Shown piece after piece: positions 52,111 to 64,000 of a DNA stretch of 64,000 nucleotides (within the stretch, counting starts at the first letter, position 1; every line of letters starts with the position of its first letter). The position numbers and the translations under genes are program-made. The notes beneath the pieces are model-generated. The model made no database searches. It had not been told where the DNA came from and was given only the letters and a program-made list of their open reading frames with translations. The DNA comes from Agromyces mediolanus (lineage in GTDB: Bacteria > Actinomycetota > Actinomycetes > Actinomycetales > Microbacteriaceae), in assembly GCF_014648575.1 (NCBI RefSeq), contig NZ_BMRJ01000002.1, positions 697,736 through 761,735 of the forward strand, written 5' to 3'.

Positions 52111-54576
<2,466 letters not shown>

Positions 54577-54602
54577 GCTTCTACTTCAGCGCGCGGAATC
54601 CG

Positions 54603-54642
54603 GAAACACTAGCGATGGTTTCTGTGGATGATTCGGTAGCAT
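54603..54642 (+). promoter_or_regulatory. LysR operator and leaderless promoter
   Basis: GAAAC-N10-GTTTC (54603-54622) is a LysR-type interrupted palindrome between the divergent EamA and LysR genes. TAGCAT (54637-54642) ends six bases before the LysR ATG. Confidence 0.6.
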
Positions 54643-54648
54643 CTGTGC

Positions 54649-55608
54649 ATGATCGATCTCGAAGCGGTGGTCGCGTTGCGCGCCGTGGCGACCAACGGCA
54701 GCGTCGCGGCGGCCGCCGACGCGCTCGGCTTCACGCCCTCGGCGGTGTCGCAGCAGATCAAGCGGCTCGAGCGCGGTACGCGCGTCGCGTTGCTCGAGCG
54801 GGCGGGGCGCGGCGTGGTGCTGACGGATGCCGGTCGCCAGCTCGTGACGTCATCGGCGACGGTGCTCGCCGAGCTCGAACGGATCGAGGCCGACCTGCAC
54901 CTCGCGGGCGGTCCCGTCGCCGATCGTGGACCCGTCGTCGGCGAAGTGCGCATCGGCGTGTTCTCGACCGCGGTGCGCGGGCTGCTCGTCGACGTGCTGC
55001 CGAAGCTGCGGGCGGAACACCCCGAGCTGCGCGTGCCCCTGCGCGAGAGCGAGCCGTGGGAGACGATCGCGCTCGTCGCGTCGGGGCAGCGCGACCTCGG
55101 CATCGTGCACCGCTGGGGCGGCGTCGCGCTCGCGATGCCCGATCATCTGGTCGAGACGCCGCTGTTCACGGATGTCGCGGACGTGATCCTGCGCCGCGAC
55201 CACCCGCTGGCCGCCGCTGCTTCGTTGACTCCGACCGACCTCGCGGGCGAGGACTGGATCGCGACCTTCGACTCGACCATCTGCCGACAGTGGCTGCGGC
55301 GGCTGTTCGACGGCGTCTCGAACGCGCCCCGCATCGTGCACGAATCGATGGAGTTCGAGAACCACCTGGAGCTCGTGCGCGCCGGACTCGGGGTTGCCCT
55401 GGTGCCGCGGATGGGGCGTCCGGCGCTGCACGACGACCTCGTCGCGATCCCGACCGCGCAGCCCGCGTCGACCAGGGGAGTGTCGGCCGTGCACCGGCGG
55501 AGTCAGGCGGACTCGCCGGCGCTGCAGGTGGTGTTGGAGGGGGTGCGGGCGGTGGCGGCTGCGCGCCTCGGTAGCTCCCGAGGTTCTCACGGAGAGAATG
55601 CCCTGTGA
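54649..55608 (+). CDS. LysR family regulator
   Basis: 319 aa. The winged helix (LEAVVALRAVATNGSVAAAADALGFTPSAVSQQIKRLERG) and substrate-binding domain from about residue 95 are standard. It probably controls the divergent EamA transporter. The C-terminal 15 residues (GSSRGSHGENAL) lie at the border of the low-GC island and may have been altered by the rearrangement there. Confidence 0.85.
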   Translation: MIDLEAVVALRAVATNGSVAAAADALGFTPSAVSQQIKRLERGTRVALLERAGRGVVLTDAGRQLVTSSATVLAELERIEADLHLAGGPVADRGPVVGEVRIGVFSTAVRGLLVDVLPKLRAEHPELRVPLRESEPWETIALVASGQRDLGIVHRWGGVALAMPDHLVETPLFTDVADVILRRDHPLAAAASLTPTDLAGEDWIATFDSTICRQWLRRLFDGVSNAPRIVHESMEFENHLELVRAGLGVALVPRMGRPALHDDLVAIPTAQPASTRGVSAVHRRSQADSPALQVVLEGVRAVAAARLGSSRGSHGENAL

Positions 55609-55614
55609 CCTCTC

Positions 55615-55953
55615 CGACCCCGACGCGCACGAAATCATCGTGCGGAGGATGGCGCCGCCGCTCTTGGGCTTCAACACCTTGAAAGGGACCGGGAGCCCGA
55701 CAGCTAGAACGATGACGATCGAGTCTTTGAGTAGATCGACACTCCAGAGACCGACTCGCCAAGCAAGAAAGATCCAAGCAGCGCACCACCCGAGGTACGG
55801 CGCGAGGACGCGGAGAATCGCCCGGTTCGATGCAGCAAGGGCGACGTCGGTTACGCCAGCCAAAACTGGGCGGCGGACTTTCGGAAAGACGAGGACCAGG
55901 AGGATGCCAGCCAGAATCAGGATGACCGTCGCGATTTCGCGACTGTTCGGCAT
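55615..55953 (-). pseudogene. Truncated membrane protein gene (5' part only)
   Basis: About 110 residues from ATG 55953, with CTGGAGG upstream. Helices ATVILILAGILLVLVFP and VLAPYLGWCAAWIFLAWRVGLW are followed by LLKDSIVIVLAVGLPVPFKVL, the pattern of an actinobacterial membrane family that I remember as over 230 aa (LLKDT segment after the second helix). Here the frame runs into antisense of the LysR gene and loses all family character, so the 3' part appears deleted. GC content is clearly lower than its left neighbours. Confidence 0.55.
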
Positions 55954-56175
55954 TGTGACCTCCAGCGCAGTGTAAAACACTCTCGTGGCCCCTCGCCGCG
56001 CTTTGCGCGCCGGACTGCTGGCGCCCGAGAGCGAGCCGTGGCTCCGAACTCACCTGTTGCGGGCGGGCCACTAGCCGCGTTCTGCGCCATTGTCGCGGCT
56101 GCCCAAGAAACCCAGTCGCTCCCGGTACCGTGGCCCTGAGCGCACCGACTATGCACATCCGAAAAGGACTACGAA

Positions 56176-56319
56176 ATGGCCAAGTCCGCCTTCTATAGCT
56201 TCTACTACGACCGTGACGCGTGGCGGATCAATACGGGAACGTCTGGCATGAGCCAGCTGGTGCACGCGAGCATCAAGGTCAACCTTGTCATGTGGGTGGA
56301 CAAGGACTACCAGTGCTGA
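56176..56319 (+). pseudogene. Stump of a TIR-like (DUF1863/ThsB-type) gene, 47 codons
   Basis: The first 18 residues, MAKSAFYSFYYDRDAWRI, match the N-terminus of the TIR-like gene downstream (MVRKVFYSFHYKRDSQRV) and the DUF1863 family in general. The remaining 29 residues share no similarity with it, and the catalytic YE segment is absent. AAAAGGA precedes the ATG. Its stop overlaps the HIT gene start (TGATG), so in its present state it acts as a translated leader of that gene. An internal deletion or frameshift is likely. Confidence 0.6.
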
Positions 56320-56765
56320 TGAGTGGTATGCACACCGATTGCCCGTTCTGCGAGATCGTAATGAACGAGGATCCCGACGCCCGAGAGATCTACCGTGACA
56401 CGGGAACAGTAGCCTTCTTCCCCACCGAGCCGGCAGTCCTCGGGCACACCATGGTCATTCCTAGGCGCCATGTGCCTGATGTGTGGGAGCTCGACGCGCA
56501 CACTGCATCCCGTGTCGCCAGCACCACCCTCGTTATCGCATCGGCAATCAGGGTGGCCTTGAAGCCTGACGGGCTGAACATAATTCAGTCCAACGGCCAC
56601 GCTGCAAGCCAGACGGTGATGCATCTCCACGTCCACATAGTCCCGCGGTGGGAGAACGACAGGATCGGCCGCATCTGGCCGCCCGAGAGTGACTACAGCG
56701 AAGCGCAGAAGGACGACGCTTGGGAAGCTTTGCGCGAAGCAGTACGCGGCTTCAGAACTCGGTGA
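56319..56765 (+). CDS. HIT family hydrolase
   Basis: 148 aa. A small zinc-type Cys pair (CPFC, 8-11), PAVLGHTMVIPRRHVPD, LNIIQSNGHAASQTV and the nucleotide-binding histidine triad HLHVHIV (His102, 104, 106) are complete. HIT enzymes cleave nucleoside phosphoramidates or dinucleotides. It is coupled to the TIR-like stump and lies in the low-GC island beside an intact TIR-like gene. A link to nucleotide signalling of the TIR protein is conceivable but untested. Confidence 0.85.
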   Translation: MSGMHTDCPFCEIVMNEDPDAREIYRDTGTVAFFPTEPAVLGHTMVIPRRHVPDVWELDAHTASRVASTTLVIASAIRVALKPDGLNIIQSNGHAASQTVMHLHVHIVPRWENDRIGRIWPPESDYSEAQKDDAWEALREAVRGFRTR

Positions 56766-57231
56766 TTCCAACTCACAGGATCTGCCCGCAACGACGCTCA
56801 CGCCGCAGTACTTGCGTGTTGACCAGGACAATATCGCGTCTGCCATCCTGAGAGTCGTGCGCGCACGTACCCGCGACCCGTCGACTAGGTCCAAGTGTTT
56901 CCGGTAGCTCGGTAGACCGATCACAAGAGCTTGGGTGCGTTTCGGCCGACTTAGATGGGTGCCGCTCCGAGCGGTCCGCCACGTGCTGCAATCACGTCGT
57001 AGATCAACTTCTTCAGGACGCGGCCAAGCTCTCGCTGCGTCAGTCTGCGGGCTCCTGTCGTTGTCCGCTCGATCGTCGGACAACTGCCGAGGTGTGGCGA
57101 TGGGTGCGGAACTGGCAGGGAGAAAGGAGTAGTCCCCCCGTTTTGGGGGGCTATTTGATGAGGAAGTGTCGCGGCGTTGCCTGAGACCCTGAGTTAGTGC
57201 CGACGGTCGGCGCGATCAGTCAAAGGTGAAC
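56766..57231. other. Low-GC intergenic region, no convincing gene
   Basis: 466 bases between the HIT and TIR-like genes. Short frames exist on both strands, none with a ribosome site and family character. A reverse-strand stretch near 56950-57070 (reads ...VLKKLIYDVIAARGG) might be a gene end without its body. A GC hairpin lies at 57131-57152 and AAAGG before the TIR start codon. It looks like decayed material. Confidence 0.6.
57131..57152 (+). terminator. CCCCCC/GGGGGG hairpin before TIR-like gene
   Basis: CCCCCC and GGGGGG are separated by a GTTTT loop and flanked by AGT/CT, then ATTTGATG. A strong hairpin with a weak T-tract, about 80 bases before the TIR-like start. It insulates the TIR-like gene from upstream transcription or attenuates it. 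Confidence 0.6.
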
Positions 57232-57723
57232 ATGGTGCGCAAGGTCTTCTACAGCTTTCACTACAAGCGAGACTCCCAAAGGGTTTCTCAGGTTAAGAAC
57301 ATGGGAGTAGTTGAAGGGCAGCCAATTCTCTCGGCAAACAAGTGGGAGGAAGTCGAGGGCGGCGGAGAAGCGGCGATCAAGGAGTGGATTGCCACCGAGA
57401 TGAGCGGCAAATCGTGCTTGGTGGTTCTCATTGGGGCCCAAACGGCTGGGCGGAAGTGGGTGAACTACGAGATCATTAAGGCGTGGAACGACCGCAAGGG
57501 CGTGCTCGGCATTCACATTCATAACTTGAAGAACCTCAACGGCGACCAAGACACCAAGGGGGGAAATCCATTCGGTGGGATCTCCGTGGGAGACAAGTCA
57601 CTTAGTTCAATTGTGAAGACGTACGATCCGCCCTACAGCACGAGCACTTACGTCTATTCGCACATCAAGGACAACCTCGAGGCGTGGGTCGAGGATGCCA
57701 TTGCCATCCGGGCGCGCTACTAG
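57232..57723 (+). CDS. TIR-like domain protein (DUF1863; ThsB-type)
   Basis: 163 aa, one domain. MVRKVFYSFHYKRD is the first strand, IKEWIATEMSGKSCLVVLIGAQTAGRKWVNYEI holds the TIR core with the likely catalytic Glu80 (WxxYE), then GVLGIHIHNL. Homologues are the ThsB sensors of Thoeris, which make a signalling nucleotide from NAD+ on phage infection. AAAGG lies six bases before the ATG. The next gene starts 13 bases later. No SIR2-type ThsA is in the window, so the membrane protein downstream may be the effector. Confidence 0.8.
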   Translation: MVRKVFYSFHYKRDSQRVSQVKNMGVVEGQPILSANKWEEVEGGGEAAIKEWIATEMSGKSCLVVLIGAQTAGRKWVNYEIIKAWNDRKGVLGIHIHNLKNLNGDQDTKGGNPFGGISVGDKSLSSIVKTYDPPYSTSTYVYSHIKDNLEAWVEDAIAIRARY

Positions 57724-57736
57724 TCGAGGACTCGCG

Positions 57737-58213
57737 GTGGAGTCAGATCGCGTCAAACACCTGGAGCTTGTTCAAGCGGTAATCACTCGCCAGGCCGGCA
57801 ACTCCTTCGTGATCAAAGGCTGGTCGCTGACGGTTTCGGCGGCCTTTTTGGCGTTCGCCGCCGATCGTGGTGACCCGCTCGTCGTGACGCTTGCATTCCT
57901 CCCGATCTTTGGTTTCGCATTTCTGGACGCGTACTTTCTTCGGCAGGAGAGGTTGTTTCGCGAACTCTACAAGGACGCGATCTCGGCGTCGCCAGCGATG
58001 CGAACCTTCGATATGGATACGTCTGGCTTTCAGGACCCTGAAGCCTTCCCTCGGTCCCGTTGGAGTTCGGTGCTTATGTCGGGCCAGTTCGTTGTTTTCC
58101 ACGGCGTCATAGCACTGGTGGCGTACGGGCTACTACTTGCGACGCTTACTCCGTGCCTCGTTGAATTCATCGGGAACTTCCGCTGCGAGTTTGGCCCCCC
58201 GTTTGGAGGATGA
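57737..58213 (+). CDS. Three-helix membrane protein paired with TIR-like gene, candidate effector
   Basis: 158 aa. A short soluble N-terminal helix (VKHLELVQAVITRQAGNSFVI), a hairpin of two helices (27-41, 47-67), a conserved-looking FLRQERLFRELYKDA segment, a soluble loop and a third helix (114-137). Resembles SLATT-type two-helix effector proteins in design; I recall similar proteins next to TIR-domain genes. GTG start with GAGGA seven bases upstream. If the TIR protein makes a nucleotide signal, this would be the membrane-disrupting responder (inference). Confidence 0.7.
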   Translation: MESDRVKHLELVQAVITRQAGNSFVIKGWSLTVSAAFLAFAADRGDPLVVTLAFLPIFGFAFLDAYFLRQERLFRELYKDAISASPAMRTFDMDTSGFQDPEAFPRSRWSSVLMSGQFVVFHGVIALVAYGLLLATLTPCLVEFIGNFRCEFGPPFGG

Positions 58214-58644
58214 CGGTTTTCAGTGACCACATCCCGCTAATAGCATCGCTCGCCCGTTGACCGAGCAGTAAGCATGGGAAGACGATCTGGCCAACAGTCC
58301 ACCCGGAGGCGATCGCGGATCATTCACCGTGGGCATCACACGTGGGCATCACAAGAGTCCGGGAGAAGCTGGCAGTGTCGGCCGGCCCAGTTCGCGGGAT
58401 CTAGCGATGTGACGCTTCGAGGCGCCCAGGTATGTTCGAGGTCGTTTGGGTTGCCAGGAAGACGATCTTCTTGGTGGTGACGCGCGGGCTACCTCAGCTT
58501 CGGAGCCTACTTCGGCGACGCTACATGGCGGGTAATCACAGTTGGCTATTATCGCCTGCGTTCGCACCGCGATGGGGGGTGGATTGGTAATCGTGCGCCT
58601 CGCGCTCGATGTTAGGGGAATACTCAGCGCAGCTTCGCGTTGAA
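58214..58644. other. Intergenic region upstream of clp gene
   Basis: No gene with a credible start is visible. A short tandem copy of GTGGGCATCACA occurs at 58329-58353. A stop-free stretch near 58485-58615 has no start codon or known pattern. GC content rises towards the right, where the stress-promoter elements of the clp gene begin. Confidence 0.55.
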
Positions 58645-58665
58645 CTTGAGCGAACCACACTCAAC
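58645..58665 (+). promoter_or_regulatory. HAIR-like HspR operator of clp gene
   Basis: CTTGAGC-N7-ACTCAAC agrees with the HspR consensus CTTGAGT-N7-ACTCAAG at 12 of 14 positions. It is 17 bases before the start codon. HspR represses chaperone genes in actinobacteria and releases them on heat shock. Confidence 0.75.
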
Positions 58666-58682
58666 TTCAACCAGGAGGCCAG

Positions 58683-61325
58683 GTGCCCAACGACTTCAAC
58701 GAGGCCGGCGCGAGCTCGTTCGACGAGTTCCTCGCCCGATACCTCGCGGGTGAGCAGGCCCGTCAGGCGCGGTCGATCGACCTCAGCCGGTTCCTGACGG
58801 CCCGCACCCAGAGCATTCTTCAGCAGGCGGGACGTTTCGCCCTCGAGCGCGGCCAGACCGAGCTCGACGCGCTGCACATCCTGCGCGTCATCGTCGAGGA
58901 CGAGAGCGTGCAGGCGGCGATCCGTCGCGTCGGCGCGAGCCCGGAGCGCATCATCACCGCGACCGAGGCGCGCCTGCCGGCATCCGGCGACGTCCCCTTC
59001 GACGAGCTCGGTGAGCGGCGCGACGCTGCGACCATTACGCCCTCGGCCTCCCGCGCGCTGTTCCACAGCTACCAGGTGGCGCGCTCCTCTGGCGCGACGT
59101 ACATCGACCCCGAGCACCTCTTCTTCGCGCTCGTGCTGGGTCAGGATGCCCCGGCCGGACAGGTACTCGCTCGCGCGGGCGTCACCGCCGAGGCCCTGAC
59201 GCAGACGATGCGGGACGGGGTGGAGGATTCCCTTCGACAGGCTCAGGGGGCCGGCGATGAGGATTCCCTTCGACAGGCTCAGGGAACCAACGGGCAGGCT
59301 CAGGGAACCACGCCGACGCTCGACAAGTTCGGCATGGACCTCACCGAGCGCGCCCGCAACGGCGAGCTCGACCCCGTGATCGGCCGCGCCGACGAGATCG
59401 AGCAGACCATCGAGATCCTCTCCCGCCGCACGAAGAACAACCCCGTGCTCGTGGGCGAGGCGGGCGTCGGCAAGACCGCGATCGTCGAAGGCCTCGCGCA
59501 GGCCATCGTCGACGAGCAGGTGCCCGAAGCCCTGCTCGGCAAGCGTGTCATCGCGCTCGACCTGCCCGGCATGCTCGCCGGCACCCGCTACCGCGGTGAC
59601 TTCGAGGAGCGCCTCACCAAGACGATGGAGGAGATCGCCGCCCATCGGGGCGAGCTGATCGTCTTCATCGACGAGGTGCACACCGTCGTCGGCGCCGGAG
59701 GCGCGGGCGAGGGCGGCATGGACGCAGGCAACATCCTGAAGCCGCGCCTCGCGCGCGGCGAGCTGCACCTCATCGGTGCGACCACGCTCAAGGAGTACCG
59801 CCAGATCGAGAAGGACCCCGCCCTCGAGCGCCGCTTCCAGCCGGTGCGCGTCGGCGAGCCGTCGATCGAGGACGCCGTGCGCATCCTCCACGGCCTGAAG
59901 CCCGCCTACGAGGAGCACCACGGCGTCGAGTACACGGACGACGCGCTGCGCGCCGCCGTCGAACTCGGCAGCCGCTACCTGCCCGACCGGGTGCTGCCCG
60001 ACAAGGCGATCGACCTCATCGACCAGGCCGGCGCGCGACTGCGCCTCCGCCTCGGCGTGAAGACCGATGTGCCCGCGCTCATGGCGCGGCTCGCCGAGCT
60101 CGAGTCCGAGAAGAACGCCGCGGTCGCCGCCGAGCACTACGAGGAGGCATCCCGCATCCGCGACGAGATCGCGAAGGTGCAGGGGAAGCTGGATGAGGTG
60201 GGGGCGAGTTCCCTTCGACAGGCTCAGGGAACCAGCCAGGCTCAGGGGACCACGGTGGATGAGGCGCAGATCGCCGCGGTGATCTCGCGCGCCACCGGCA
60301 TCCCCGTGAACCGCCTCACCGAGGGGGAGCGCGAGCGCCTCGCGACCCTCGAGGACGAGCTGCACGCCCGCGTGATCGGGCAGGACGACGCGGTCACCGC
60401 CGTCGCCAAGGCGGTGCGCCGCAACCGCACCGGCATGGGCGACGCGAAGCGGCCGGTCGGCTCGTTCCTGTTCCTCGGGCCGACGGGCGTCGGCAAGACC
60501 GAGCTCGCCCGCGCGCTCGCCGCGAACCTGTTCCCTTCGACGGGCTCAGGGGGCGAGAACGTCATCCGTTTCGACATGTCGGAGTTCGGCGAGCGGCACA
60601 CCGTGTCGCGGCTCGTCGGCGCCCCTCCCGGGTACGTCGGCTACGACGAGGCGGGCCAGCTCACCGAGCGCGTGCGCCGCAACCCGTACTCGATCGTGCT
60701 GTTCGACGAGATCGAGAAGGCGCACCCCGACGTGTTCAACCTGCTGCTGCAGGTGCTCGACGACGGGCGCCTCACCGACGGGCAGGGTCGCACGGTCGAC
60801 TTCCGCAACACGGTCGTCGTGATGACCTCGAACCTCGGTTCGGAGTTCCTCGCCTCGCGTTCGGGAGCGCTCGGCTTCGTCGCATCGGCGGATGCCTCGG
60901 CCAACGGATTCTCCTCGGAGAAGGACCTCCGTGACCGCGTCATGGGCAAGCTGCGCGAGGCGATGCGTCCCGAGTTCCTGAACCGCATCGACGAGATCGT
61001 GCTGTTCAAGAAGCTCACGCAGGACGAGATCGCCCGCATCGTGTCGCTCATGCTCGGCGCCACCCGCGCCCGCCTCGGCGCGCGCGAGATCGGCCTCGAG
61101 GTGACCGACGCGGCCGTCGCGTGGATGGCCGAGCACGGGTACGAGCCCGAGTTCGGGGCCCGGCCGCTGCGCCGGCTGATCCAGCGCGAGGTCGACGACC
61201 GCATCTCCGACCTGCTCGTCTCGGGCGAGCTCGGCGACGGCGGACTCGTGCGGGTGGATGCCTCGGGCGACGAGCTCGTCGTGGCATCCGCGGTTCCCGC
61301 CACCGGGATGCCGCAGGCCGCGTAA
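58683..61325 (+). CDS. clpC: Clp/Hsp100 AAA+ chaperone (ClpC/ClpB type)
   Basis: 880 aa. An N-terminal extension, the Clp_N repeats, first AAA+ domain (Walker A GEAGVGKT near 259, IVFIDEVHT), a short UVR-like middle segment ([21 protein letters not shown]) as in ClpC rather than the long ClpB coiled coil, and second AAA+ ([11 protein letters not shown] near 599). The LGF loop before the sensor region could bind ClpP. It unfolds proteins for reuse or for ClpP. GTG start with AGGAGG. HAIR operator upstream. Three places carry in-frame dispersed repeats (SLRQAQG), unusual for this protein. Confidence 0.85.
59228..59308. repeat. Dispersed palindrome, two full and one partial copy, inside clp gene
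   Basis: CCCTTCGACAGGCTCAGGG occurs twice (59228-59248, 59264-59286) and once as CAGGCTCAGGG (59294-59308). The frame is kept and gives repeated DSLRQAQG peptides in the linker after the N-domain. The flanks TTC/GAA make it a hairpin. Confidence 0.9.
60208..60251. repeat. Dispersed palindrome, one full and one partial copy, inside clp gene
   Basis: GTTCCCTTCGACAGGCTCAG with GGAACC after it is a complete inverted repeat; a shortened CAGGCTCAGGGGACC follows 3 bases later. In frame, in the middle region before the second AAA+ domain. Confidence 0.9.
60531..60551. repeat. Dispersed palindrome copy inside second AAA+ domain
   Basis: TTCCCTTCGACGGGCTCAGG, one base different from the others, encodes FPSTGSG just after the Walker A helix, a loop where homologues are shorter. 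Confidence 0.8.
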
Positions 61326-61375
61326 CCCCATCGACCGGAACGCCCGGCCCTCCGCGGAGGGCCGGGCGTTCCGCG
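61320..61375 (+). terminator. clp terminator, first copy (left direct repeat)
   Basis: A perfect inverted repeat with 19-base arms (61336-61373, arm start CGGAACGCCCGGCCCTCC) directly after the clp stop. The 56 bases from GCGTAA to CCGCG are nearly repeated at 63375-63430, on the other side of the nuclease-like gene (4 differences). Confidence 0.85.
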
Positions 61376-61447
61376 TGGCGGCGTGAGGAGTTTAGGTCCA
61401 TCTGCGATGTCCGGAAGAATGCTCGGAACGGATGGAAAGGGAGGCCC

Positions 61448-63373
61448 ATGACCGGAACAGGGCGCCGATCGACAGCACCAAGTCTGCCGGGCGGTGCAGA
61501 CTTGCAGATTGTCCGTATCGGCGAGTATCTGGATTGGGTGGCTAACGGCACCTCATACGGCTGGCTTTCGGACGAGCAGGTGCAAGCCGATGCCCTTGTT
61601 CAGTTGCGGGGGACTGGACTGCTGGTTGCGGGTAGTCGACCTGTCCGCCTTACTACTGAAGGCGCGCAGTGGCTTGCCACGCGCGACCCGGCAGAGCTCT
61701 TCCGCGCTCTCCATGCGAACATTCTCTACTTCGGGGAAATGCTGAGTTTGCTCATCGAGAGGGAACGGCGGGTCGAAGAGCTTCTCGACGAGGCAAACAC
61801 TCGGTTTCAGCTTGGCTGGCGGAGCGCGGATCAGGTCCGTCGGCGATTGGCGCTGTTGACTCAGCTCAGCCTCGTGGAGGAGGCGGGCGAACGGCGGCAC
61901 CGGGGGACGCCTGCCGGGATCGCAGCCCTTGCCACAGTTGAACTACAGGATGCCGTCTCGGCTGCTCCTCGGGAACTCGAGTTGGAACTCCCTGCAATGC
62001 CGGACGAGATTCACGAGCACCTCGAATTGGCGCGAGCTGACCCTGGACGCCGCGTTGCCGCGATCGGCTATTTTCCCCAGGATCGGCTTGCATTCATTTC
62101 GTACGTGCTCCGGGTGGCATCCAACGGTGCGGATCTGGGAGAACTCACGAGCGATGCTGCCGAGCGTTTTTCAATCGCGGCGAGCTCAGCGCGCAGCGCG
62201 CTCAACACAGTCAAGCAGTTGGGGCTTATCGGATACACCGGGCGGACGGAGGTGACGACCACCCCCCTCGGGCATGCCTGGCTCGAAGTGCCTTCGGCGT
62301 TGAACTTCATCCGAATTGCGCATGCTCGCTATCAGTGCGTTGGCGAGGTTATACCGCTGTTGGCTTCGGTTGATTCGTCGGCGAGCGTCCATCGGCGGCT
62401 CACATTCGCAGGGGAGCGCGTTCCGCATCAGAGCCGAACCGCCACCGTGATCCGATGGTTCATCGAGGCTGGCGGGGTCGAGGAGATCGGAAGCCGTTAT
62501 CGAGCGACGGCGTTTGGTCGCCTCATCAGTGATGAACTTCCCTTGAGTCAGATGTCAGGGCAGCCGTCAGACAGCGGTGCCCAAGTGCCCGTCCTGCCTG
62601 AAGAGAACGAGTTCCACTCGCTCGCACGAGAGCTTGTCGAGGCATCGACGGATTCGGCCGAGCCTGGACGCTTCGAGGCTGCAGCAGCGCAAGCATTCCA
62701 GCTTCTCGGCTTGCATGCGAAGCGAGTTGGAGGTCCGGGGTCGACTGATGTGGTCGTTGAGGTGAGGGCGGGGTTCGAGCTTCTCGCACGAGTAGTCGTC
62801 GACACGAAGTCTGCAGCGTCCGGAGAGGTGCAAGAGTCTGCGGTGAGCTTCAACTCCATCTCTGACCACGCCAAGAAGCACTCCGCTGATTACAAGCTTG
62901 TTGTCGGGCCCAGCTTCGGAGGGCGGCTCGCGAAGTGGGCGAGCGAACAGGGTATCGCGTTGCTCACGGCAGAGGACCTCGCGGAAATGCTCCTGAAGCA
63001 CCGTGAGACGCCGTGGTCGCCCGGTGAGCTAGTCAATCTTTTTGCAGGTGGAGCTCGAGCAGAAATCGAGGCGGCGTACGAAACCTCTGAGCGGCAGCGA
63101 AGCCTCGTCGCGGCTGTTCTCGAAGAGCTCGTCCTTGAGACAGGCGAGGGAGGTGAGAGCATCACTCCGCGCGACATCTATCGTGCACTTCGGAAGCAAG
63201 CCGGTTTGTCTCCCACTGAAGGGGAGATCCGGGAGGTGCTCGAGTTCTTGGCGGCGCCAATCGTCGGCGCAGTCAGAGAGGATCGCGGCTCATTCGCATT
63301 GGTGGAGTCCCCGAGTACCACAGGGCTGAGGCTTCGTGGACTTGCTCGTGTATTCGACTCGCGAGGTAGATGA
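61448..63373 (+). CDS. Multi-wHTH protein with PD-(D/E)XK-like nuclease domain (novel)
   Basis: 641 aa. At least three winged-helix-like segments in the first 360 residues (about 22-80, 120-150, 225-280 and 325-360), then a nuclease-like core: helix with Glu410 (RFEAAAAQAFQLLG), Asp434 in GSTDVVVEV, and Asp452-Thr-Lys454 in VVVDTKSAA. These fit a Mrr/restriction-endonuclease PD-(D/E)XK fold. A final wHTH-like part ends the chain. AAAGGGAGG precedes the ATG. GC and codon use are lower than in the flanks, and the gene lies between two copies of the clp terminator. No methyltransferase is adjacent. I do not recognise the family as a whole. Confidence 0.7.
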   Translation: MTGTGRRSTAPSLPGGADLQIVRIGEYLDWVANGTSYGWLSDEQVQADALVQLRGTGLLVAGSRPVRLTTEGAQWLATRDPAELFRALHANILYFGEMLSLLIERERRVEELLDEANTRFQLGWRSADQVRRRLALLTQLSLVEEAGERRHRGTPAGIAALATVELQDAVSAAPRELELELPAMPDEIHEHLELARADPGRRVAAIGYFPQDRLAFISYVLRVASNGADLGELTSDAAERFSIAASSARSALNTVKQLGLIGYTGRTEVTTTPLGHAWLEVPSALNFIRIAHARYQCVGEVIPLLASVDSSASVHRRLTFAGERVPHQSRTATVIRWFIEAGGVEEIGSRYRATAFGRLISDELPLSQMSGQPSDSGAQVPVLPEENEFHSLARELVEASTDSAEPGRFEAAAAQAFQLLGLHAKRVGGPGSTDVVVEVRAGFELLARVVVDTKSAASGEVQESAVSFNSISDHAKKHSADYKLVVGPSFGGRLAKWASEQGIALLTAEDLAEMLLKHRETPWSPGELVNLFAGGARAEIEAAYETSERQRSLVAAVLEELVLETGEGGESITPRDIYRALRKQAGLSPTEGEIREVLEFLAAPIVGAVREDRGSFALVESPSTTGLRLRGLARVFDSRGR

Positions 63374-63374
63374 C

Positions 63375-63430
63375 GCGTAACCTCATCGACCGGAACGCCC
63401 GGCCCTCCGCGGAAGGCCGGGCGCTCCGCT
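63375..63430. repeat. clp terminator, second copy (right direct repeat)
   Basis: GCGTAACCTCATCGACCGGA and the following hairpin (63391-63428) copy the segment after clp with 4 differences in 56 bases, including the last Ala codon and stop of clp. It marks the right end of the inserted block and now serves convergent genes as a terminator. Confidence 0.85.
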
Positions 63431-63443
63431 TGCGCGGGGCGAT

Positions 63444-63665
63444 CTACGGCAGCGGCGCGTCGCGCAGCAGGGCGGGGTCGAGCGTGTGCTGCGCGCCGAT
63501 GAACTCGAAGCCGAGGATGCGTCCGTTTGTATCGACATCGGCGAGCAGCATCGTGCCCCCGGCTGGCGACTCGAACTCGACGGTGTGGCTGATCGAGCCG
63601 GGAGCGATGGTGTCTCCGAGGGTGAGGTAGGCCGCGTCGGCCTCGGGGTCGTACGTGAGCTTCAA
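63444..63665 (-). CDS. DUF2283 family protein
   Basis: 73 aa. LTYDPEADAAYLTLGDTI at the N-terminus and DVDTNGRILGFEFIGA in the second half are typical of DUF2283, small beta-rich proteins of unknown role. TTG start: GGAGG stands seven bases before it, and the typical family N-terminus KLTYD follows. An ATG at 63692 is possible but lies upstream of this ribosome site. Confidence 0.75.
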   Translation of the reverse strand: MKLTYDPEADAAYLTLGDTIAPGSISHTVEFESPAGGTMLLADVDTNGRILGFEFIGAQHTLDPALLRDAPLP

Positions 63666-63784
63666 CGTTGTGCCTCCCCGGTGCGTCCACATCGTAGGCA
63701 GAGGATACGCGGGCCGGGGCCGCGCCCGAACTGTGGACAACGCACCCCCGACCGCGCAGCCGCCGATTCGCCTAGCCTGAGGGC

Positions 63785-64000
63785 ATGAACGTCGTCGGGC
63801 TCGTGGTGCTCGGCCTCGTCTTCGCGTTCGCGGCGACGATGGGCTGGCTCGAGCTTCGCGGATCGCGAAGTGAGGTGCGGGGAGCGGCACCGCGAGTGCG
63901 GGCCGACCGGGTCGAGGCGGGCCTGCGGGCGGCGGGCTTCGCCGACGACGAGGTCGCCTACGCGCTCTCCGACCTCGACCCGGAGCTCGTGCGGGTGCGG
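63785..64000 (+). CDS. Hypothetical protein, N-terminal part (runs off the window)
   Basis: 72 codons to the window end. One N-terminal helix (VVGLVVLGLVFAFAATMGW), then a basic linker and an acidic segment (RAAGFADDEVAYALSDLDPE). TAGCCT ends six bases before the ATG, so the mRNA is leaderless. Too short to assign. Confidence 0.6.
   Translation, partial: MNVVGLVVLGLVFAFAATMGWLELRGSRSEVRGAAPRVRADRVEAGLRAAGFADDEVAYALSDLDPELVRVR

Follow-up and report, generated by a model that had tools for sequence, protein, structure and literature searches.

A predicted FokI-like solo nuclease at a clp hotspot of Agromyces mediolanus, perhaps brought in by one-sided recombination

The window analysed here is a 64,000-nt stretch of the 3.86-Mb genome of Agromyces mediolanus (label G000; assembly GCF_014648575.1, contig NZ_BMRJ01000002.1, positions 697,736-761,735, forward strand), and its subject is a single gene for a predicted nuclease that stands directly behind a clp gene. 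An earlier sequence-only reading of this DNA had described a lower-GC gene of 641 codons enclosed by two copies of the post-clp terminator. Both features stand: the gene runs from an ATG at 61448 to a stop at 63373, and the copies are 59 nt long, 93% identical with four differences, and spaced 2055 bp apart. The locus is laid out as follows.

58683..61325, + strand: clp gene for a ClpA/B-type ATPase of 880 amino acids; an open reading frame (ORF) whose 3' end, the hotspot border, is matched in 60 of 60 genus genomes
61319..61377, + strand: repeat copy 1, with the last clp bases, stop, linker and a terminator hairpin with perfect 19-bp arms (-43.8 kcal/mol); equal to the sister genome G030 over all 59 nt
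61448..63373, + strand: inserted gene for a predicted FokI-like PD-(D/E)XK nuclease of 641 amino acids with winged-helix modules
63374..63432, + strand: repeat copy 2, a displaced clp end with a decayed hairpin (-31.3 kcal/mol, two broken pairs)
63444..63671, - strand: DUF2283-type gene (the family name is that of the sequence-only reading), accessory in the hotspot; an ORF with matches in the genus
63785..64000, + strand: start of the gene that directly follows clp in G030, which has an empty site; it runs off the window

The similarity of the two copies is far above chance. Copy 2 is the sole other near-full-length match to copy 1 in the genome (E 2.5e-19), and with self-palindrome rows set aside the next match covers about 41 nt at 85%. 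The shared content is specific to clp, since beyond a generic hairpin it includes the last four coding bases, the stop codon and the linker before the hairpin. On our reading the far copy is the one that has decayed; it begins at the very base after the nuclease stop codon. GC content is about 0.61-0.63 inside the inserted segment against about 0.70 outside, and GC at third codon positions is 0.64 in the ORF containing the nuclease against 0.92 in clp. A tRNA attachment site at the locus was dropped as a candidate because no tRNA was found in the window, and an Rfam search of 54000-64000 gave no match.

The nuclease is predicted to consist of four parts.

61490..61954, + strand: winged-helix unit 1, residues ~15-169, aligned to unit 2 by hhalign and with PadR/MarR-type winged helix-turn-helix matches
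62081..62557, + strand: winged-helix unit 2, residues ~212-370, like the BpuJI recognition domain
62597..63085, + strand: nuclease domain, residues ~384-546, with E410, D434 and D452-x-K454
63092..63358, + strand: C-terminal winged helix, residues ~549-637

The repeated winged-helix segments first noticed by eye were borne out by profile-to-profile alignment of the two units (hhalign probability 99.5%, E 3.4e-23). The same holds for the proposed catalytic core: E410, D434, D452 and K454 are invariant in 21 of 21 sequences, and Pfam Mrr_cat scores 22.3 bits on the catalytic domain, just above its curated cut-off of 21. In the one structural comparison of the predicted model on which the fold matches rest, FokI and Nt.BspD6I come out best, and HindIII matches over 152 residues with a root-mean-square deviation (rmsd) of 2.5. 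By its predicted core fold and active site, the protein is a member of the PD-(D/E)XK nuclease superfamily. When the PDB was searched with the window protein by itself or with an 11-row profile, no credible relative came up, FokI being absent among the matches listed for the latter; with a 21-row profile FokI ranked first, FokI and Nt.BspD6I scoring E 0.083 and 0.11, below significance. No NCBIfam family matches the nuclease.

The FokI-type layout is present, in that a winged-helix recognition part is followed, as in FokI and Nt.BspD6I, by a PD-(D/E)XK cleavage domain with D and D-x-K. Compared with those enzymes, the nuclease here carries two additions, a further winged-helix unit ahead of the rest and a winged helix at the C-terminus. 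No methyltransferase was seen beside it, and its sequence similarity to FokI alone is not significant. It also resembles Mrr-type enzymes in its Mrr_cat score, but it carries D-x-K with an aspartate where Mrr has the PD-QXK form (stated in PMC11037411), and its fold is nearer to FokI and HindIII. That same source describes winged-helix fusion endonucleases, including N6-methyladenine-dependent type IV enzymes, as stand-alone genes that a methyltransferase rarely adjoins. These share with the present protein the union of winged helix and nuclease in one stand-alone gene; the DpnI-like members differ in layout and size, and a wH-Mrr-NTPase fusion mentioned there has an NTPase, which is not seen here. 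A single-protein nuclease of such architecture is therefore already known in form, so that of the earlier suggestion of a new kind of methyltransferase-free nuclease the missing methyltransferase stands (none was seen beside the relatives), while the newness does not, given the FokI/Nt.BspD6I architecture and PMC11037411.

Comparison of the sister junctions uncovered an empty site in G030, where 107 nt separate the clp stop from the gene that starts at window position 63785. At full length the nuclease occurs in none of 149 other relatives, among which there was one weak partial match. Because of these two results, the proposal that a foreign gene has been placed at clp is supported by the comparison of sequences. 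The DUF2283 gene had been taken as a fixed neighbour and is not: it is matched in 3 of 60 genus genomes, its own included and one only at 37%, and G030 is without it.

Displaced clp ends are found well beyond this genome. In 57 of the 60 genus genomes the region around clp was excised (G056, G051 and G040, with weak clp matches, were left out), and 10 of the 57 carry the clp coding tail again, on the same strand and 0.9-12 kb downstream: G000, G009, G011, G013, G024, G031, G043, G048, G049 and G059, with three copies in G043. A fixed test on an 11.5-kb cut scored a same-strand copy in 12 of 57; these include G006, G027 and G034, which have post-stop repeats only, and exclude G011, whose copy falls beyond the cut. 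Inverted tail copies were scored in 0 of 57, copies of a clp interior segment in 0 of 57 on either strand, and a downstream control stretch in 1 of 57, a tandem repeat. Two clp paralogues, each searched in 60 genomes, gave no such copies among the matches listed, which reach down to E ~1e-11 and 2e-18, and the clp query at E < 2e-18 gave nearby partial copies in at least 8 of 60 genomes among the matches listed. Relative to the clp stop, copies start from -521 to -6 and end from -328 to +99, a spread that marks a variable, non-homologous second junction. Tyrosine and serine recombinases (PF00589, PF00239; transposases were not searched) had no match within 15 kb of clp in any of the ten scarred genomes, and the nearest recombinase-type match is a sub-threshold resolvase 16 kb away in G048. 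The clp 3' region is a hotspot without a recombinase gene in which displaced clp ends recur. The arrival of the gene had been thought to have duplicated the host terminator; a displaced clp end is indeed present, as one case in this recurring hotspot and not as a one-off duplication.

Several further matches were set aside. A paralogue row in G024 is no copy, as it lies just beyond the main match and continues the same query without repetition, and is therefore the same gene interrupted. Also left uncounted as clp scars were downstream matches in G027, G034, G006 and G042 (terminator or repeat only) and in G002 and G003 (low identity or 35 nt). Turning to individual cargoes, the same MerR-like/NmrA-like pair precedes a displaced clp fragment in G059 (L078, +1087..+2672 from the clp stop) and in G043 (L083, +4896..+6481), which suggests that the unit was inherited from a common ancestor or transferred. 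G024 has other genes in the clp interval and, 2.1 kb downstream, a 96-nt clp tail that is identical to the G000 clp tail at 96 of 96 positions and 96.8-96.9% identical to its own. Its DUF2283 gene follows a 60-nt duplicate of the beginning of the downstream gene and is joined, close to its own start, to the copied clp tail, an arrangement that needs more than one event.

The nuclease family is sparse, with 17 loci in about 85,000 species genomes scanned outside the close relatives of G000; relatives occur in several phyla and on plasmids. Among viral sequences, 17 stretches of viral contigs matched a pattern and none encodes a relative of the nuclease; phages gave no match. The neighbourhoods were scanned with crude ORF calls, and none of the methyltransferase motifs scanned was found in the ORFs around the 17 relatives, L108 having yielded no ORF rows. 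Pfam on 20 neighbouring proteins gave no methyltransferase, and two annotated plasmid regions, from the 2 of 5 plasmid records examined, list none within 5 kb of the relative. None adjoins the gene in the window either, its neighbours there being clp and the DUF2283 gene; the rest of the genome was not searched. The gene is thus a stand-alone endonuclease gene, as in type IV restriction, in the window and in the relatives. Among 10 hand-picked neighbours, which like the Pfam set are not a full census, are Gabija A and B, a type IV enzyme, PDC-S23 and PDC-M48B. At one locus (L103, 3585-9992) the relative directly adjoins the Gabija pair GajA and GajB; on the Gordonia plasmid p174 (L119, 149-7031) it adjoins TnsA-like, Mu-type and AAA ATPase transposition genes, and on a Staphylococcus plasmid it adjoins a recombinase gene.

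On balance, the account that we find rather probable is that a solo restriction-type nuclease of FokI architecture was inserted between clp and the next gene by one-sided recombination. Incoming DNA would have found its homologous partner in the clp 3' end on one side and been joined illegitimately on the other. In this way clp would have remained whole, and its former tail and terminator would now lie past the cargo as a displaced direct copy, a tail that could start anywhere. A precedent for such a mechanism is the homology-facilitated illegitimate recombination with displaced immunity genes described for type VI secretion system (T6SS) loci of V. cholerae in PMC5361080. The T6SS loci are alike in having a conserved anchor on one side, a non-homologous join on the other and old 3' genes left in arrays; they displace effector-immunity modules, whereas here a housekeeping tail and terminator would be left beyond unrelated cargo that includes a defence-type gene. 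Integrase-poor hotspots, where accessory genes were linked to recombination at flanking core genes (PMC5635113), likewise have accessory genes sitting between core genes and no recognisable mobility genes.

Gene ends and tRNA genes commonly serve as sites for islands. The repeats could accordingly be attachment sites, with the gene as a minimal non-autonomous element that a site-specific recombinase mobilises in trans at the 3' end of clp; a single gene flanked exactly by direct repeats at a gene 3' end, with copy 2 abutting its stop codon, is what this would produce. We consider it unlikely, for the copies vary so much in start and end that they share no common core, and the ten scarred genomes are empty of tyrosine and serine recombinase matches within 15 kb. 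Alternatively, the tails could be remnants of a decayed tandem duplication of clp and its surroundings into which the nuclease came independently. In its favour, every scored copy is direct and downstream, and for 3 of 12 the clp of the same genome is the nearest. Against it, the copies are of the 3' end only (the interior segment tested gave 0 of 57), unrelated cargo lies between tail and copy, and for 9 of 12 another species' clp is closer than the one in the same genome, which is what the presence of both a donor and a recipient end would give; this makes duplication a more improbable origin still. Some observations weigh against one-sided recombination itself. Just 4 of the 12 copies favour the other species at uncorrected p < 0.05, with that species picked as the best match among about 56, and three of the 12 have their own clp as the closest. 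In G000 the repeat is a short one, and it is copy 1, not copy 2, that equals the sequence of G030. The order of genes in G024 is more complex and left unexplained by the model, the recombinase profiles do not speak to transposases, and the insertion events are fewer than ten genomes because G043 and G059 share cargo.

As for the protein, the two winged-helix units and the C-terminal winged helix would read DNA, most likely a modified base or other mark of foreign DNA because the gene travels without a protecting methyltransferase, and the FokI-like domain would cut it, probably as a dimer. The best-supported role is that of a solo nuclease reading such a mark, since stand-alone winged-helix type IV nucleases are published (PMC11037411) and a triple winged-helix module like that of FokI occurs in phosphorothioate-linked systems (PMC10853773); the fold is predicted and the active site conserved, while the target and a probable anti-phage function are inferred. 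The model has a pTM of 0.42 and superposes on FokI with an rmsd of 12-19 A, which weighs against this reading; the high rmsd arises because several domains are fitted at once. FokI and Nt.BspD6I are members of type II systems with methyltransferases. As they are also the closest folds, the protein could be an ordinary type IIS restriction enzyme with its methyltransferase encoded at another place in the genome, as in FokI-type systems. This has a low probability in our view, as no methyltransferase was seen beside the relatives in several phyla and on plasmids, and a wandering single gene would kill an unprotected recipient.

How defence genes enter integrase-less hotspots is an open question that the clp scar addresses; in a study of E. 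coli defence islands, it could not readily be told how the systems at one dedicated hotspot are mobilised (PMC10121019). Since the scar can be counted in genome collections, one entry route becomes testable, and similar leftover gene ends in sister species are a hint of gene entry without an integration enzyme. The nuclease itself belongs to a sparse wandering family with a FokI-like active site and duplicated sensors, all predicted, and is a candidate for a new specificity towards modified phage DNA. Long flanking direct repeats occur at three loci among the 16 relatives and the window with both flanks, namely in the window, a Lachnospiraceae relative and a Nocardia relative. In the Lachnospiraceae locus (L109, 2260-10116) two 5' fragments of uvrB (281 nt at 80% and 282 nt at 76%) lie upstream of the nuclease and an intact uvrB lies downstream, possibly a mirror image of the clp scar, with the same logic, in Bacillota. 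With the clp tail and the uvrB head as two examples, displaced core-gene ends may be a readable scar of one-sided recombination as a main route of entry and turnover for solo defence genes in integrase-less hotspots, a generalisation that we put forward tentatively and with some doubt. The 231-nt Nocardia repeat had looked by eye like the scar of an integrase at a tRNA end, which was rejected when ARAGORN found no tRNA and Pfam no integrase in two ORFs.

Around the locus, the clp protein (58683-61325) contains in-frame SLRQAQGT-type repeats that differ in number and position between this genome and G024. Upstream of clp, at 56220-58213, lie genes for a HIT protein (ThsC-like), a ThsB-type TIR-like protein and a PDC-M50A protein, together a Thoeris-like defence set. 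In G024 a gene for a 433-aa ATPase occupies the place of this block, so that the upstream side of clp looks variable too.
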